IMG/VR virus record: IMGVR_UViG_3300034107_000924
Span: 1 to 25,498 of that record
Length of the DNA: 25,498 nucleotides
Origin: a virus
Reading direction: 5' to 3' (one strand)
The notes beneath the pieces are model-generated. The model did no database searches and was not told the DNA's origin. It saw only the letters and a list, made by a program, of their open reading frames with translations. This document shows positions 11,934 to 25,498 of the stretch, in pieces (the stretch's first letter is position 1; each line of letters opens with the position of its first letter). The position numbers and the translations under genes were made by a program.

Positions 11934-12353
11934 ATGAACAGCGCGCAAATGAACAACGAGCCAAATCATTCGACGATTGAATGGACTGCCAAATACCAAA
12001 AACATTTGAAGTCAGTCCAATGGAAGAACACACGGATCGCTCTGTTTCGCCTTCGAGGCCGAGCGTGCGAAGTCTGCAAGCATCCATCAGCCACGCTTGA
12101 GATCCATCATCTGAATTATGACAGGCTCGGCTGCGAGCTGCCATCAGACCTCAAGATCGTCTGCAAGGCATGCCACGCTGAGGAGGATCAGAAGCGAAAC
12201 GCTGACGTCGCTCAACGACGGGAAAGCAGACGCGAGTCGGCAGGCTTCGAGACCTGGATGCGGAAGAGCACCGGTCAAGGCTCAGAATATGCCAACGAAT
12301 GCGACTACGAGGAGTTTCAAGAATGGAAACAAAGGAAACGGGAGGAATGGTGA
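11934..12353 (+). CDS. HNH endonuclease
   Basis: A 139-residue protein. HNH core at residues about 45-82: CEVCKHPSATLEIHHLNYDR, then LKIVCKACHAEEDQ. C45, C48, C77 and C80 form the structural zinc site; H58-H59 with N61 and H81 form the catalytic centre (the pattern is H-H-x-N then H). It is a metal-dependent DNA nicking or cutting enzyme. HNH genes placed just before terminase genes are common in long-tailed phages and assist packaging or cos cleavage. Start is the ATG at 11934, after the origin-like region; the N-terminus is polar and disordered. Lower GC than its neighbours. Confidence 0.85.
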   Translation: MNSAQMNNEPNHSTIEWTAKYQKHLKSVQWKNTRIALFRLRGRACEVCKHPSATLEIHHLNYDRLGCELPSDLKIVCKACHAEEDQKRNADVAQRRESRRESAGFETWMRKSTGQGSEYANECDYEEFQEWKQRKREEW

Positions 12354-19042: not shown

Positions 19043-19818
19043 AGCCTTAGCAGCAAGTCGAGCAGTTGTTCGCTATCATCCCGCAGCGCCTCGCGCTGTT
19101 CCTCGGTCATCCCCGGCAGCGTCTTGCGCAGCACCGTTAGCAAGCGGGTGAGATGCGGCACATAGTTGTCATGCCCGGCCTGTTCGCCGCGTTGAGTGAT
19201 CTCCTCTTCGGTCACCACCCGCGGGGCTTCGGTGGCAATCCGCACCGAGAGTGCCAACCGCTTGACCGTCGGCACCCGCTTATTAGATTCCGAATCTAAG
19301 AGCGCCATCCATTCCAGCCGTTGCGGCGTGGGCAGCGGTGCCAGGATCCGGTGGTGGCCGAACGACAGATGCACCCGCCGCTCCGCCATCGGAATCTTGC
19401 GGCAGACACTGGCATATTGGGACAGCGTCTGGCGGTCCAGCGAAGTGGCCGCGATGGCATCGTCGAAAATCTCCGAGGGGATGCGGTTCGCCTTGGAGTC
19501 GAAGGCATCGCCCTCGAGTAACAGTTGCTTGCCCCACTTGCGTTCGCCGTATACCATCCAGTCGCCGATGCACCAGGCGGCCGTCTGCAGAGCGGTGCCG
19601 AAGCTGCTGCCAATCGCGCCCCATTCCTCGAAGGTCAGGTCTTTGGCGAGGATCAGCCCGGTCGGGGTGGCTTGGATGAAGGCGGGCAGCGGCGCGGCGG
19701 TGGTGACTTCCATATCCGCTTCGCGAGAGTCAAGAAGCCACAGCCCTTCACCAACTCCCGCAAGAGCAGCGCCATCGCCTTCATCAATGCAAAGTCCGAT
19801 CTCATCCAGGTTAATCAT
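19039..19818 (-). CDS. LmbU-like regulator on the reverse strand
   Basis: A 259-residue protein. The start is the ATG at 19818, overlapping the upstream HTH gene by four bases (ATGA, 19815-19818 on the minus strand). Residues about 58-175 carry LTFEEWGAIGSSFGTALQTA, AWCIGDWMVYGERKWGKQ, DRQTLSQYASVCRKIP, LSFGHHRILAPLPTPQRLEW. This set (W...G; W.GDW..YGE; LD.QTL..YA.V.R; RR..LSF.HH) is the signature of the LmbU family, helix-turn-helix-like transcription regulators known from antibiotic clusters and phage-like elements. The C-terminal third is an acidic-basic helix (EEQREALRDDSEQLLDLLLR). Unlike the rest of the window it runs against the late genes. A regulatory role is inferred from the family; the target is unknown. 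Confidence 0.7.
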   Translation of the reverse strand: MINLDEIGLCIDEGDGAALAGVGEGLWLLDSREADMEVTTAAPLPAFIQATPTGLILAKDLTFEEWGAIGSSFGTALQTAAWCIGDWMVYGERKWGKQLLLEGDAFDSKANRIPSEIFDDAIAATSLDRQTLSQYASVCRKIPMAERRVHLSFGHHRILAPLPTPQRLEWMALLDSESNKRVPTVKRLALSVRIATEAPRVVTEEEITQRGEQAGHDNYVPHLTRLLTVLRKTLPGMTEEQREALRDDSEQLLDLLLRL

Positions 19819-20168
19819 TGGCCCGCGAGCGATTGCAACCGTGCCTTCCGGCAATGCTCCCGATTCTTCTCCGGCCGCATCGCGCGCACCGGGTGCACCC
19901 CGAAGGCATCGCACAAATCGACGCAGCGCTTCGAGACGGCCGCCCGGGTCACCCCGTGCCGGCGGGCAATCTCCGCCATGCTCGATCCCTCGTAACCGAT
20001 GCCGGTCACCAGCGCCATGCACTCCACGCCGAGGGCCGGATCCGTATCGGCGAGCATCAAGCCCACCAGCCGCCGCACCATCACCAGCGCGCCGCGCTCC
20101 GGCCGGGGTGGCTCCGGGATTTCCCGGCGGTCGGTGACCGGCACCCGCGCGCCATTCTCCCAGCCCAT
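19815..20168 (-). CDS. HTH DNA-binding protein on the reverse strand
   Basis: A 117-residue protein. I chose the ATG at 20168; an in-frame ATG at 20186 is possible and would overlap the divergent forward gene. Residues 63-83 (SMAEIARRHGVTRAAVSKRC) form a helix-turn-helix like that of sigma-region-4 or resolvase-type domains. A helical region (DTDPALGVECMALVTGIGYE) precedes it and a basic segment follows (RAMRPEKNREHCRKARL). It overlaps the LmbU-like gene by four bases and so is co-transcribed with it. With only 16 bases between 20168 and the forward start at 20185, any promoter of this pair lies within coding sequence. Confidence 0.65.
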   Translation of the reverse strand: MGWENGARVPVTDRREIPEPPRPERGALVMVRRLVGLMLADTDPALGVECMALVTGIGYEGSSMAEIARRHGVTRAAVSKRCVDLCDAFGVHPVRAMRPEKNREHCRKARLQSLAGQ

Positions 20169-20184
20169 CGTCGCTTGACTTCGC

Positions 20185-20907
20185 ATGGCAAGGGTAATGC
20201 CAGCAATCGTCAGCGGGATCAAGACCCGAGTTATAGTTCAGTCGGAGGAAAACGGCACCATCGACCGCTTCGGCGTCGACATGCTCACCCGCGTCGAGGA
20301 GGTCCCGGCCGAGGGCTTTCCCTCTTTGTTACGCTCGAAATACTCAGTGCATCCGCGCTTCACCTCGATGGCGGTCAGTAAAGTAAACTGGACCAGCGGC
20401 AGCCATGGCAAATTCTACCGGGTCACCTATACCTACGAAGGTTTCCTCAACTCACTGCCCGAGCCGATCTACTCCCTCAGCTCCTCGCTCGCCGAGGAAC
20501 CCATCGAGCTGCACCCGGATTTCTCCACCATTGCCGGCACCCCCGCCGCGCCGCTCAATGGCGCGGTGTTCGTCGATCCCGACACCGAGAAAATCACCAC
20601 CGACAACACCCGCGGCGTGTTCCGCGAATTCCGCGCGCGTCTCGGCGAGGCGGCCAACCTCAAGGCCGGGATCGAATCGTTTCTCAGCCCCGGCGCCACC
20701 TGGTCCGAGATCTATTTTTCCAGCAGCCGCCCCACCGACCTGGGCAGCCTCGGCGAGATCGACCCGCCGAGCGGCCCGCAACCGAGCTTTGGCTCGAGGA
20801 ATTGGATTTACTCCGCCGCCGATTACACCCGCCGGGGCGGCATCTATGAGATCCGCAAAACCTGGCTGCTCTCCGGCCGCAACGGCTGGGATGCCGACAT
20901 CTACTAA
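20185..20907 (+). CDS. Putative virion protein
   Basis: A 240-residue protein; the ATG at 20185 and one at 20197 are both possible. Beta-rich throughout (MPAIVSGIKTRVIVQSEENG, RVTYTYEGFLNSLPEPIYSL, NWIYSAADYTRRGGIYEIRK). Lys- and Arg-poor in places and without a signal peptide, as is common for tail or head-associated virion proteins. Position between the connector gene and tail genes suggests a virion structural protein. No family recognised. Confidence 0.5.
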   Translation: MARVMPAIVSGIKTRVIVQSEENGTIDRFGVDMLTRVEEVPAEGFPSLLRSKYSVHPRFTSMAVSKVNWTSGSHGKFYRVTYTYEGFLNSLPEPIYSLSSSLAEEPIELHPDFSTIAGTPAAPLNGAVFVDPDTEKITTDNTRGVFREFRARLGEAANLKAGIESFLSPGATWSEIYFSSSRPTDLGSLGEIDPPSGPQPSFGSRNWIYSAADYTRRGGIYEIRKTWLLSGRNGWDADIY

Positions 20908-20909
20908 CC

Positions 20910-21539
20910 ATGGAACTGCCCGAAATTTTCACCGGCACCCCGACCCCATCCAAATGGGCCGCCCTCGGCGAGTATCTGCGCAGCGGCGGGATCCGCAGCG
21001 GCCCCGGCTTGCTGATGCGCAAAGTCGGCAACCAGGTCATTCTGAGCAACCGCCGGCGCGGTGCCGGATCCGGCGGTGGCGGCGCGCCCACCACCTGCTT
21101 CTTCGGCGAGCTCACCACCTATCCGGTCGGTGGCGTCACCAAGACCGGCATCCGTGGCGGCACCATCCAAGCGGGCATCAAAAACTTCAACGTCCCCAAC
21201 AAGGAGCTCAACCTCGCCTCCACCGGGGTCACCCTGTTCTATCTGGAAATCGCCGTCACCGCCAACAATGACGACGCGGGCGAAATCCTGCTCCCCGGCA
21301 TCGAAACCAGCACCGAAACCACCCCCTCAGGATTCTGGAAATCCGTCTCCTGGACGGCGGAACCGGTCACCCAATACCCCGCAAACACCCGCCCGATCGT
21401 GACCACCGGCGTCGGCAAGATCATCATCCCGATTGGCAAGCTCACCATCGCGGCGGGCGCGGCCACGCTTGAAGCGGTCGGCTGCGGCAATATCACGATC
21501 AACCACTGCGGCGGAACCCTAACGGCAGCGCGAGGATGA
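20910..21539 (+). CDS. Putative virion protein with Gly-rich linker
   Basis: A 209-residue protein starting two bases after the previous stop. The first 55 residues (MELPEIFTGTPTPSKWAALG, then LLMRKVGNQVILSNRRRG) lead to a Gly-rich linker (GAGSGGGGAPT) and a beta-rich C-terminal domain (FGELTTYPVGGVTKTGIRGG, FYLEIAVTANNDDAGEILLP). An N-terminal attachment segment, a linker and a beta domain recall tail fibre or virion adaptor proteins; that is inference. The end overlaps the next gene by four bases (ATGA, 21536-21539). Confidence 0.5.
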   Translation: MELPEIFTGTPTPSKWAALGEYLRSGGIRSGPGLLMRKVGNQVILSNRRRGAGSGGGGAPTTCFFGELTTYPVGGVTKTGIRGGTIQAGIKNFNVPNKELNLASTGVTLFYLEIAVTANNDDAGEILLPGIETSTETTPSGFWKSVSWTAEPVTQYPANTRPIVTTGVGKIIIPIGKLTIAAGAATLEAVGCGNITINHCGGTLTAARG

Positions 21540-22993
21540 ACGTCCTGACCTCGCAAGACGTGGCCCTGATTGGCTGTTGCCCGTGCCAGCCGGATGCCTG
21601 CGAGGCACCGAGGAAGGAATGTCAGAGCATCAGCGTTGCGGCATGCGGTTTCAGCTTACCCGCGCTCTCGACTGTTCCGGCGGAAGATCGCTGTAAGATT
21701 TTCCGCAAGCGAGAGGAGAAATTTCACCGTGCGATGACTGAAACCGGAGAGGATCCCGGTGTTTATACTTACGTTGGAAGCGAAGACACGACCATCACCG
21801 CTACACATCAAAACGACTATGTGACCGTCGGCACGGGCGATGCAGCTGTGCGAACATGCACCACCCGCCAGTTCTCTACATCGTATTCATTCACTGATAA
21901 CGAAACAATCACGCCAGACGACGAGGAAATCGACCCAACCGTGACGGTATCGGTTGTGTCATCAACCTCGGGTATTGATTCTCCATGCTCTGGAACTTTC
22001 TCGGTATCCTCCACAGGATCCCCCGGCGAAAGCGGCGAATACAATATCTGCCCCCTGCCGGGAGTTGGAGAACCGACAGTCGATTGGACCTATTCAACGC
22101 TCGGTATATTCACGAAGGTTGATTTGGACACTTTCGGAGCGCCCCCGCTTTTGGACGGTCACATCACCGACACCTTGACTGTAAAGTTTCTGGAACCCGT
22201 CACCATCGCCAGCCTGACCGCTGAGATCGAGGTAAGGAAAACCATGATTTCAGGTGAAGACTGGCCCGGCTCGGATTGTTCATCTCAGGTCGAGTTTTCC
22301 TACGGCTACGAAGACCCGCCGGAAATCCCCGACCCCGCGCCCGATCCGCCCGATCCTGTGCCTGAACTCGCAGTCGTTTGCGAGCAGGTTTCCGCCGTCA
22401 CCAAAGCCCGCTACCGCGTCGGTATTCCCGCCGGCGCACGCTGGGACGCGATCACCGCCGAATGGCTGGCCTGGGACGCGGCAGGCGAGGAGGACGAAGA
22501 GCGCGGCGAGGAACCCCCGAAAACCACGCTCGATGCCGCTCATGCCGCGTGGGAGATCGCGCATGCCGCCTGGACTGCCGCCGACCCGGACGAGCGCGGA
22601 GAGGAACCGTTGGAGCCGACGAAGCGCACCACCTACGAACTCCAGTGGGACGAGGTCTTCTTCCCGGCGGAGTGGGAAGCATGGCGAACACTCCAAGACG
22701 CCTTCGATGCCGCCACCGCCGCGCATGCAATCTGGGAGGATGCCGACCCCGACGACCGGGGCGACGAACCCGTCATCCCCGATGACCCCGGCGCGGAACC
22801 CGCGCCCGCGCCATCGTTAGTCACCTCGCGCTCGTGGGTTTACGGCGGCGCGGACGAATGGTCCGGGTGGTTCGAGATCCCGATTCCCGAAGGCCCAGGC
22901 GAGACCCGGGTCGTCAACCTGCTCGTCATCTGTTACCGCTCCGCATCCTTAGGCCAAAAGCCAACCGCACACGGGGAGGTCTATGAACTCTGA
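21536..22993 (+). CDS. Virion-associated protein with WxxADPDERGEEP repeats
   Basis: A 485-residue protein. The N-terminus is Cys-rich (IGCCPCQPDACEAPRKECQS). Residues about 80-280 are Thr/Ser-rich and beta-like and have lower GC than the neighbouring genes (about nucleotides 21640-22260). Residues 313-412 contain three copies of a Trp-initiated acidic repeat: WDAAGEEDEERGEEP at 313, WTAADPDERGEEP at 346 and WEDADPDDRGDEP at 400, separated by Ala/His-rich helices (AAHAAWEIAHAAW). The last 50 residues return to beta structure (SRSWVYGGADEWSGWFEIPI). No family recognised. The repeat and the surface-like composition suggest an exposed virion protein, which is inference. Confidence 0.5.
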   Translation: MNVLTSQDVALIGCCPCQPDACEAPRKECQSISVAACGFSLPALSTVPAEDRCKIFRKREEKFHRAMTETGEDPGVYTYVGSEDTTITATHQNDYVTVGTGDAAVRTCTTRQFSTSYSFTDNETITPDDEEIDPTVTVSVVSSTSGIDSPCSGTFSVSSTGSPGESGEYNICPLPGVGEPTVDWTYSTLGIFTKVDLDTFGAPPLLDGHITDTLTVKFLEPVTIASLTAEIEVRKTMISGEDWPGSDCSSQVEFSYGYEDPPEIPDPAPDPPDPVPELAVVCEQVSAVTKARYRVGIPAGARWDAITAEWLAWDAAGEEDEERGEEPPKTTLDAAHAAWEIAHAAWTAADPDERGEEPLEPTKRTTYELQWDEVFFPAEWEAWRTLQDAFDAATAAHAIWEDADPDDRGDEPVIPDDPGAEPAPAPSLVTSRSWVYGGADEWSGWFEIPIPEGPGETRVVNLLVICYRSASLGQKPTAHGEVYEL

Positions 22994-24355: not shown

Positions 24356-24381
24356 AATTTGACACCCCGCCAGCTGCCATC

Positions 24382-24774
24382 ATGGCAGCGTCAATCAAGG
24401 GAGTTCAGGTTATTTGGGGAGTGCCGGCAGGCGCGATCACCGGCGCGCACAGCGTCGTCACGGCCGGCATCATCGAGAGCTTCGAGATCACCAACGGCGG
24501 CGGCACCACCGTCATCACTGATGAGGATGACGATCCGGTCACCCGCATCGATCACAATGCCGAGCGCAAGGTCGCCCTTTCGGTGGTCTGCAAGGCCACC
24601 ACCATCCTCCCCGCCAAAGGCGTCGAACTCACCGGCCTCGGCACCATCGACGGCGTGAACTTCGCCACCGGCCGCGTCTTCGTTGACGATGCCAAGGCGG
24701 TCTACTCCCAGGGTGCGGTGAAGAAAATCAGCATCTCCGCCACCCACTATCCGATCATGGCCGCTGATGCCTAA
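24382..24774 (+). CDS. Major tail tube-like protein
   Basis: A 130-residue protein (MAASIKGVQVIWGVPAGAIT, VTAGIIESFEITNGGGTTVI, then KVALSVVCKATTILPAKGVE). Beta-rich with a long loop, as in short tail tube proteins; gene order (terminator, tube, chaperone) is right. Lambda gpV is longer (246 residues), so this could be a compact tube protein of the kind found in shorter tail modules. The gene is followed by a tRNA and then by the tail assembly chaperone. Moderate confidence in the exact role. Confidence 0.55.
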   Translation: MAASIKGVQVIWGVPAGAITGAHSVVTAGIIESFEITNGGGTTVITDEDDDPVTRIDHNAERKVALSVVCKATTILPAKGVELTGLGTIDGVNFATGRVFVDDAKAVYSQGAVKKISISATHYPIMAADA

Positions 24775-24785
24775 CATCCTCTGAT

Positions 24786-24857
24786 CGCGGGAAAGGCAAC
24801 CGGTCCGCCAGCGGACTCATAATCCGCCGCTTGTGGGTTCGATTCCCGCTCCCGCAA
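24786..24857 (+). tRNA. tRNA with CAU anticodon, initiator-like
   Basis: A 72-base cloverleaf (without CCA). Acceptor stem: 24786-24792 pairs with 24850-24856 at six of seven positions, the first being a C-A mismatch (C1-A72), a hallmark of bacterial initiator tRNA. D stem GGC/GCC (24795-24797, 24807-24809) with G-C at 11-24, also an initiator-type purine-pyrimidine pair. Anticodon stem GCGGA/TCCGC (24811-24815, 24823-24827) around the loop CTCATAA, so the anticodon is CAU. Variable loop five bases; T stem 24833-24837 with 24845-24849. Discriminator A73, then CTC instead of CCA. Position 8 is A (normally U) and only two G-C pairs border the loop, unlike standard initiators. It lies between tail genes, which is unusual. 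Confidence 0.75.
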
Positions 24858-24871
24858 CTCCCACCGCCGTC

Positions 24872-25396
24872 ATGTCCGCCCTCGCCACCGCCGAGCCGAC
24901 GCTCCACGACATCGCCGCCGCCATGCAGGCCAGCGATGGCAAGACCCCCACCGCGGTGCTCGATGCGTTCCTGCCCAAGCCCGCCAGCCACCTCGGCCAG
25001 GCGCTGGTGCCGCTCTCCGCCGGCCACGAATTGTTGCTCGCCCAGACCGGCCACCCACTGTCCACCGGCGAAGCCTGGCAGGACATCGATGTGCTGATGG
25101 CGCTGTTCATTTTCGCCAACCCCTCGCGCCTTCTGTTCGGCCTGGTTGCCGATGGCAGCTTCGAGGCCGAGTTCTTCGCCTTCATCGACCGCATCCCCAC
25201 CGCCGATATTCCGCGACTCGGTCAGGACATGGTCGCCCACTGGGTGCGCAACCGCGCCACCGCCCTGGCCATGGAATCCGAGCACTCCACCGCTCAAAAA
25301 AAAACGGCGGCTTCGGCTGGTGGCTCAACACTCTCAGCACGGCTTGCAAAGTCTACGGCTGGAGTCCGGACATGGCTCTCCACGACGTTCCGCTAG
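24872..25396 (+). CDS. Tail assembly chaperone (gpG-like), frame-0 product
   Basis: A 174-residue protein starting at ATG 24872, 14 bases after the tRNA. An open frame reaches back to 24833 inside the tRNA, which I reject. Helices (SALATAEPTLHDIAAAMQAS, QDIDVLMALFIFANPSRLLF, AEFFAFIDRIPTADIPRLG) have the all-helical make-up of tail chaperones. At 25296-25304 there is a run of nine A. In frame 0 the protein goes on with KKTAASAGGS and a meaningless basic tail to a stop at 25394-25396. A shift of -1 at the A run gives a well-behaved continuation. In lambda the matching proteins are gpG and gpGT, where the frameshift product recruits the tape measure. Confidence 0.75.
   Translation: MSALATAEPTLHDIAAAMQASDGKTPTAVLDAFLPKPASHLGQALVPLSAGHELLLAQTGHPLSTGEAWQDIDVLMALFIFANPSRLLFGLVADGSFEAEFFAFIDRIPTADIPRLGQDMVAHWVRNRATALAMESEHSTAQKKTAASAGGSTLSARLAKSTAGVRTWLSTTFR
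25296..25304 (+). promoter_or_regulatory. -1 frameshift slippery site
   Basis: Nine consecutive A residues (25296-25304) follow a CAA codon start; the heptamer A-AAA-AAA fits a -1 slippery sequence, with frame-0 codons AAA AAA ACG. After the slip the next codon is AAC. The sequence beyond is GC-rich, but I have not verified a stimulatory hairpin or pseudoknot. Confidence 0.7.
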
Positions 25397-25498
25397 TCCA
25401 GATCTTCGCGCTCAACGCCTGCCACGCCTGGGGCGAAGGGCTGTCGGTCGCCGGGGTCTCCTATGAGGACCAGGACATGCACGCCGCCCTCGCCCGCA
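25303..25498 (+). CDS. Frameshifted extension of the tail chaperone (gpT-like, partial)
   Basis: The -1 frame from codon AAC at 25303 reads NGGFGWWLNTLSTACKVYGW, then SPDMALHDVPLVQIFALNAC, HAWGEGLSVAGVSYEDQDMH and further, without a stop to the end of the window. Conserved-looking aromatic and small residues, in contrast to the Ser/Arg-rich frame-0 tail, show that this is the real coding frame downstream. The segment cannot be made on its own, because no start codon with a ribosome-binding site precedes it; it is expressed as the long fusion. Its C-terminus lies beyond the window. Confidence 0.7.

Follow-up and report, generated by a model that had tools for sequence, protein, structure and literature searches.

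The window analysed here is an entire IMG/VR record of 25,498 bases and is possibly an incomplete piece of a phage genome. Terminase, portal and capsid genes lie upstream of a tRNA gene with a CAU anticodon, which occupies a 97-base gap between the stop codon of one tail gene and the ATG of the next (Table 1). In the interval from capsid to tail (19196-22993), several ORFs gave no PHROG or Pfam match at all; the translation of the ORF at 19196-20137 is of low complexity, and this ORF may shadow a true gene in a different frame.

Table 1. The tRNA, its arms and the two adjoining genes, in window coordinates.
Feature	Position	Strand	Evidence or remark
tRNA(CAU), hybrid initiator/elongator type, no encoded CCA	24786..24857	+	Rfam 43.8 bits; five related copies; covariation
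5' acceptor strand CGCGGGA; C1 and A72 unpaired; pairs 2-7 closed with 24850-24855 (UCCCGC)	24786..24792	+	
D arm: G10-C25, G11-C24 and C12-G23 paired; A13·C22 unpaired; loop of 7 nt	24795..24809	+	
Anticodon arm GCGGA-CUCAUAA-UCCGC; anticodon 24818-24820; A38-U39 at 24822-24823	24811..24827	+	
T arm GUGGG-UUCGAUU-CCCGC	24833..24849	+	
Upstream gene, tail-tube-like by position	24382..24774	+	homologue in all tRNA-bearing relatives, 60-66% identity
Downstream gene, tail assembly chaperone-like	24872..25396	+	slippery A run 25296-25304, likely -1 shift

Neither of the proteins flanking the tRNA matched PHROG or Pfam, so they are called "tube" and "chaperone" from gene order and from a conserved slippery run of A. 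This run, nine A long and lying within the chaperone-like ORF (window 25295-25307), recurs in the related phage loci L041 (at 12644), L078 (7140), L082 (7164), L092 (19318) and L079 (7178). Since the -1 frame downstream of the run stays open up to the window end with a protein-like reading, the gene likely uses a G/GT-type programmed -1 frameshift; the ORF at 25146-25466 was rejected as the shifted frame, the open protein-like frame being the -1 frame. A motif resembling TTTGACACC or TTGACACC is conserved ~15-25 bases ahead of the start of the tube-like gene (window 24358-24366, where it lies outside the upstream ORF; L041 ~11711; L092 ~18480), and in both L041 and L092 the following tail gene is preceded by the similar TTGACAACC. 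It may be a promoter, a translation signal or a chance resemblance.

Covariance scoring of the window against Rfam returned a single RNA family match, to the tRNA family RF00005 on the forward strand at exactly the span previously proposed, covering the whole model at 43.8 bits (gathering score 29; E 2e-6). A full-length match above the curated score places the sequence in this family. ARAGORN did not report the tRNA at default settings; at a 95% threshold it called tRNA-Met(cat), the same molecule 1 base short at both ends. Every feature named in the preliminary description is present, namely C1·A72, G11-C24, A73, the CAU anticodon, A8 and A31-U39. The window copy does not encode its 3' CCA, and the minimum free energy fold of the unmodified sequence differs from the cloverleaf (z -2.3).

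We then searched for relatives of this phage. The capsid protein, used as a query, matched 38 viral loci and two MAG contigs of Verrucomicrobia; alignments of the portal and of a tail protein, used as further queries, retrieved L078, L082 and L079. The nearest relative, L041 (capsid 75% and portal 88% identical), carries a tRNA-Met(CAT) at 12137-12212 flanked by the same two tail genes, and L078, L082 and L079 each have a CAT tRNA at this junction, so that the tRNA lies between the same two genes and on the same strand in five phages, the window included. The preliminary description would have been refuted by relatives that hold only a degraded fragment; instead, these four have complete, better-scoring copies that encode CCA and leave 1·72 unpaired. 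In L092, the junction consists of TAA-ACCG-ATG only, with the two tail genes 4 bases apart and no tRNA between them, yet that record has one CAT tRNA at another locus, between a putative endolysin ORF (assigned by eye) and a short hypothetical ORF. The survival of the tRNA away from the tail genes argues that it acts in trans. Each of the six records (L041 being a MAG contig) thus contains exactly one tRNA, which always has a CAU anticodon, an unpaired 1·72, G2-C71 and C3-G70. In more distant relatives the same two genes abut or overlap with no tRNA between them, and no tRNA was found in those distant-relative records that were searched whole, several records being fragments.

From six concatenated proteins, FastTree groups the phages as (L092,(L082,(L078,(window,L041)))), with L079 and a chromosomal relative, G309, as the sister group; either a single gain followed by loss or relocation, or several gains, could account for the history of the tRNA. 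G309 was the one clear new case from searches of 388 and 320 genomes for chromosomal relatives, which also gave G572, whose portal gene is cut by the contig end. G309 is without the tRNA, and ARAGORN detected none within ~56 kb around it. A DNA pattern close to the window tRNA had no matches among viral contigs, a relaxed version recovered only two already-known relatives, and BLASTN of the window tRNA against known phages gave partial tRNA matches only. On the basis of G309 and of a MAG contig on which every recognised gene is a phage gene, the small phages of this clade probably infect Verrucomicrobia.

When the six phage tRNAs are aligned by standard numbering, 115/120 stem cells are paired, 13 of the 20 pairs have changed on both sides, and 1·72 is open in every copy. 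As read from these sequences, both the fold and the open end are under selection, and their maintenance through compensatory changes excludes chance and disfavours a fragment or relic. Together with five copies at one tail junction and a sixth elsewhere, this suggests that the gene is probably a working spare start-tRNA and not debris.

To compare the phage tRNAs with both methionine tRNA types, we collected host-phylum CAU tRNAs from 115, 39 and 39 genomes; a few rows misframed by ARAGORN were excluded from the model sets. Host-phylum initiators mostly have an unpaired 1·72, A11-U24, A-U, G-C and G-C at 29-31, and A38-C39, and the elongators have G1-C72, C11-G24 and either A31-U39 or A31·G39. 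The phage tRNAs mix the two: all six combine an initiator-type acceptor end with a pyrimidine at 24, and four have an elongator-type 31-39 pair. Position 11-24 is purine-pyrimidine in three, the window among them, and a Y·U mismatch in the other three (L041, L078 and L082). Relative to bacterial tRNA-fMet (host-phylum examples such as L068), the phage molecules share the CAU anticodon, the open 1·72, G2-C71 and C3-G70, as well as G4-C69 in all but L079, R11-Y24 in three of six and A73 in five of six; they differ in the anticodon stem, the 38-39 step, a shorter D loop, the T arm and a hybrid model score. Three consecutive G-C pairs at 29-31 are incomplete in 6/6 (the window has G-C, G-C, A-U), and the initiators of the host phylum likewise possess no more than two.

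Scored with a covariance model of each host type, the window tRNA reached 49.0 bits as an initiator and 50.5 bits as an elongator. The initiator-minus-elongator differences were +13.4 bits for L079, +11.5 for the L092 phage, +6.0 for L078, -1.5 for the window, -2.3 for L082 and -2.8 for L041, against references of +42.5 for a host initiator and about -42 for host elongators, host tRNAs that are themselves in the models. Scores so close on both models make "hybrid" the apt term and leave "initiator" unproven: on its sequence, the molecule joins an initiator-type acceptor end to an elongator-like anticodon stem. The earlier label "initiator-like" therefore holds for the acceptor end and the 11-24 pair and fails for the anticodon stem. 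A tRNA-Ile2 (CAU, lysidine) was rejected, since the window has C1·A72, G11-C24, G4-C69 and G5-C68 where a host copy (L046) has G1-C72, C11-G24, C4-G69 and C5-G68. The latter four pairs play a role in TilS recognition. In host-phylum genomes we also observed 3' fragments of tRNA-fMet, spanning positions 28-77, 33-77 or 48-77 (for example, G079:C1:368280, G005:C303 and G100:C1).

How might such a molecule serve the phage? From these features we infer expression, processing, charging, formylation and use in initiation, along with the selective reason for carrying the tRNA. It would be excised from the late (tail) transcript, receive its 3' CCA, be charged with methionine through the CAU anticodon and, because of the unpaired 1·72, G2-C71 and C3-G70 at its acceptor end, be formylated; it would then serve in initiation, above all in cells that run short of their own initiator tRNA. 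The signals for formylation lie in the acceptor stem (the 1·72 mismatch, G2-C71 and C3-G70), aided by A11-U24 (PMC7949028), and formylation is complete in a molecule that joins an initiator acceptor stem to the anticodon arm of an elongator (PMC4611024). At the P site, the three G-C pairs are important, and replacing all of them abolishes initiation by an E. coli initiator (PMC10486304); when the P site is less filled by the host initiator, a three-G-C mutant is admitted (PMC7949028). With its elongator-like anticodon stem, the phage tRNA would thus initiate poorly as long as host tRNA-fMet is plentiful and become more useful once the latter is depleted. These published formylation signals and P-site conditions make a methionine-charged, formylated spare initiator, working when tRNA-fMet is scarce, the most likely reading, and we consider the chances about evenly balanced that this is a functional phage tRNA acting in trans as a supplementary initiator. 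The incomplete G-C pairs at 29-31, the 11-24 mismatch in three of the six, and a window score no better as an initiator all count against it, as do A8 in place of the near-universal U8 in the window and L092 phage copies and the absence of CCA from the window copy.

The tRNA could instead be an elongator or dual-use methionine tRNA that mainly reads internal AUG, its open 1·72 being tolerated. The elongator-like 31-39 pair in 4/6 and the slightly higher elongator scores of the window, L041 and L082 fit this account, and one tRNA serves both roles in E. coli strains (PMC7949028). We nonetheless think it improbable: 1·72 is unpaired in all six although the adjacent pairs are kept by compensatory change, and none has the elongator-type Y11-R24 pair. 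Further, internal methionine usage is hardly raised (1.9% in the phage versus 1.7% in the host, in a rough ORF sample), so elongation demand offers no reason for the tRNA, and codon compensation was rejected on these values; an initiator tRNA is no response to codon usage, and a sole initiator-type tRNA therefore cannot be explained by internal-codon compensation. It is similarly doubtful that the window phage's own copy is decaying and no longer functional while those of its relatives are in use. That copy is among the weakest of the six, given its A8 and lack of CCA, and its A13·C22, its Rfam score, the lowest of the set, and its non-cloverleaf minimum free energy fold would also suit decay. 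Its acceptor, anticodon and T stems are nevertheless fully paired, it shows compensatory differences relative to L041 at 7-66, 12-23 and 51-63, and A8 occurs in the L092-phage tRNA too.

Two other accounts are less probable still. The identical site, strand and gene pair in five phages could mean that the tRNA signals cleavage of the late mRNA, separating a highly from a weakly expressed tail gene. This is very unlikely, and as the main role it was rejected on the relocated copy in the L092 phage, which retains the tRNA elsewhere with just 4 bases between the tail genes; distant relatives cope with abutting or overlapping genes, and such a signal does not need an open 1·72 end. The preliminary description had raised a relic of integration for the 3' half; on such an account the tRNA would be an att site copy or would restore a host tRNA-fMet gene disrupted by integration. 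Verrucomicrobiota genomes do contain many att-like 3' fragments of tRNA-fMet, an abundance expected if mobile elements integrate there, and a relative with this tail module sits in a 1.15 Mb chromosomal contig. But no tyrosine integrase was found in five records (the window, L078, L079, L082 and L092), the phage tRNA departs from host tRNA-fMet in its anticodon and T arms, and the ~56 kb around the chromosomal relative are free of tRNAs. We regard a role in tRNA-dependent lysogeny as highly improbable, and the relic was rejected on the missing integrase and the covariation of full tRNAs.

A special case of the supplementary initiator would be the replacement of host tRNA-fMet cut by a VapC-type toxin between A38 and C39, with the altered 38-39 step protecting the phage molecule. 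The enteric VapC cuts tRNA-fMet at this point (PMC4105405), and the site is absent from all six phage tRNAs, in which 38-39 reads A-U, U-U, U-U, U-U, C-C and A-G, compared with A-C in 23/23 host-phylum initiator sequences. The window therefore carries a change at a known cleavage site relative to the host (A38-U39 versus A38-C39), as expected of an anticodon-nuclease-resistant phage tRNA, and phage tRNAs with anticodon-loop changes predicted to confer VapC resistance have a precedent (PMC10264068). PIN-domain matches number 12 in the MAG host and 18 in the genome with the chromosomal relative. Against this stand the sampled initiator-type tRNAs of known phages, most of which retain A38-C39, the shared ancestry of four of the six anticodon arms, and the fact that the 38-39 change may merely follow from an elongator-type stem, host elongators having A38-U39 or A38-G39. 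The many PIN-domain proteins of the putative hosts are candidate nucleases, and no VapC of these hosts is known to cut tRNA-fMet. The earlier proposal that the tRNA replaces a nuclease-hit host tRNA is thus consistent with the 38-39 changes and unproven; we view it as possible, though more likely wrong than right.

Phage initiator-type tRNAs, single ones included, are already known. Caulobacter phage CcrSC (annotated tRNA-fMet) and Mycobacterium phage Myrna carry CAU tRNAs with initiator features, but the tRNAs of such multi-tRNA phages resemble host initiators more closely, A38-C39 being retained in most of them, and the phages exceed 100 kb. Sinorhizobium phiLM21-like prophages have single tRNA-Met or tRNA-fMet genes (PMC12429752) and resemble the present case in that one CAU tRNA is the only tRNA of a mid-sized tailed phage; unlike it, they are temperate with a tyrosine integrase, and the phiLM21 tRNA (21148-21224) lies outside the 22-48 kb module of PMC12429752 and keeps A38-C39. 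The annotated strand of this tRNA-Met (L305 79-155) is opposite to that given by ARAGORN and BLAST. Stenotrophomonas phage Philippe (L317) encodes a hybrid tRNA-Met with a C1·A72 acceptor end and G-C, G-C, A-U at 29-31, but it has U11-A24 as in elongators and belongs to an unrelated N4-like phage (Schitoviridae). ARAGORN also found initiator-type CAU tRNAs that are unannotated in the records of Clavibacter phage CN1A (L319 1500-1576), in which position 38 is likewise changed (U), and Xanthomonas phage DoCa5 (L318 81-156).

The novelty here lies in the clade, in the constant position of the tRNA within the tail operon and in the 38-39 step, which is consistently altered. A single VapC-resistant, formylatable initiator could amount to a dedicated counter-defence that takes over late-expression initiation where host tRNA-fMet is cut, although we consider this unlikely. 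Small and clean as a test system, the clade could show whether attacked or limiting host tRNAs are replaced by phage tRNAs at the step of initiation, and how much of the three G-C rule an initiator can lose while staying functional.
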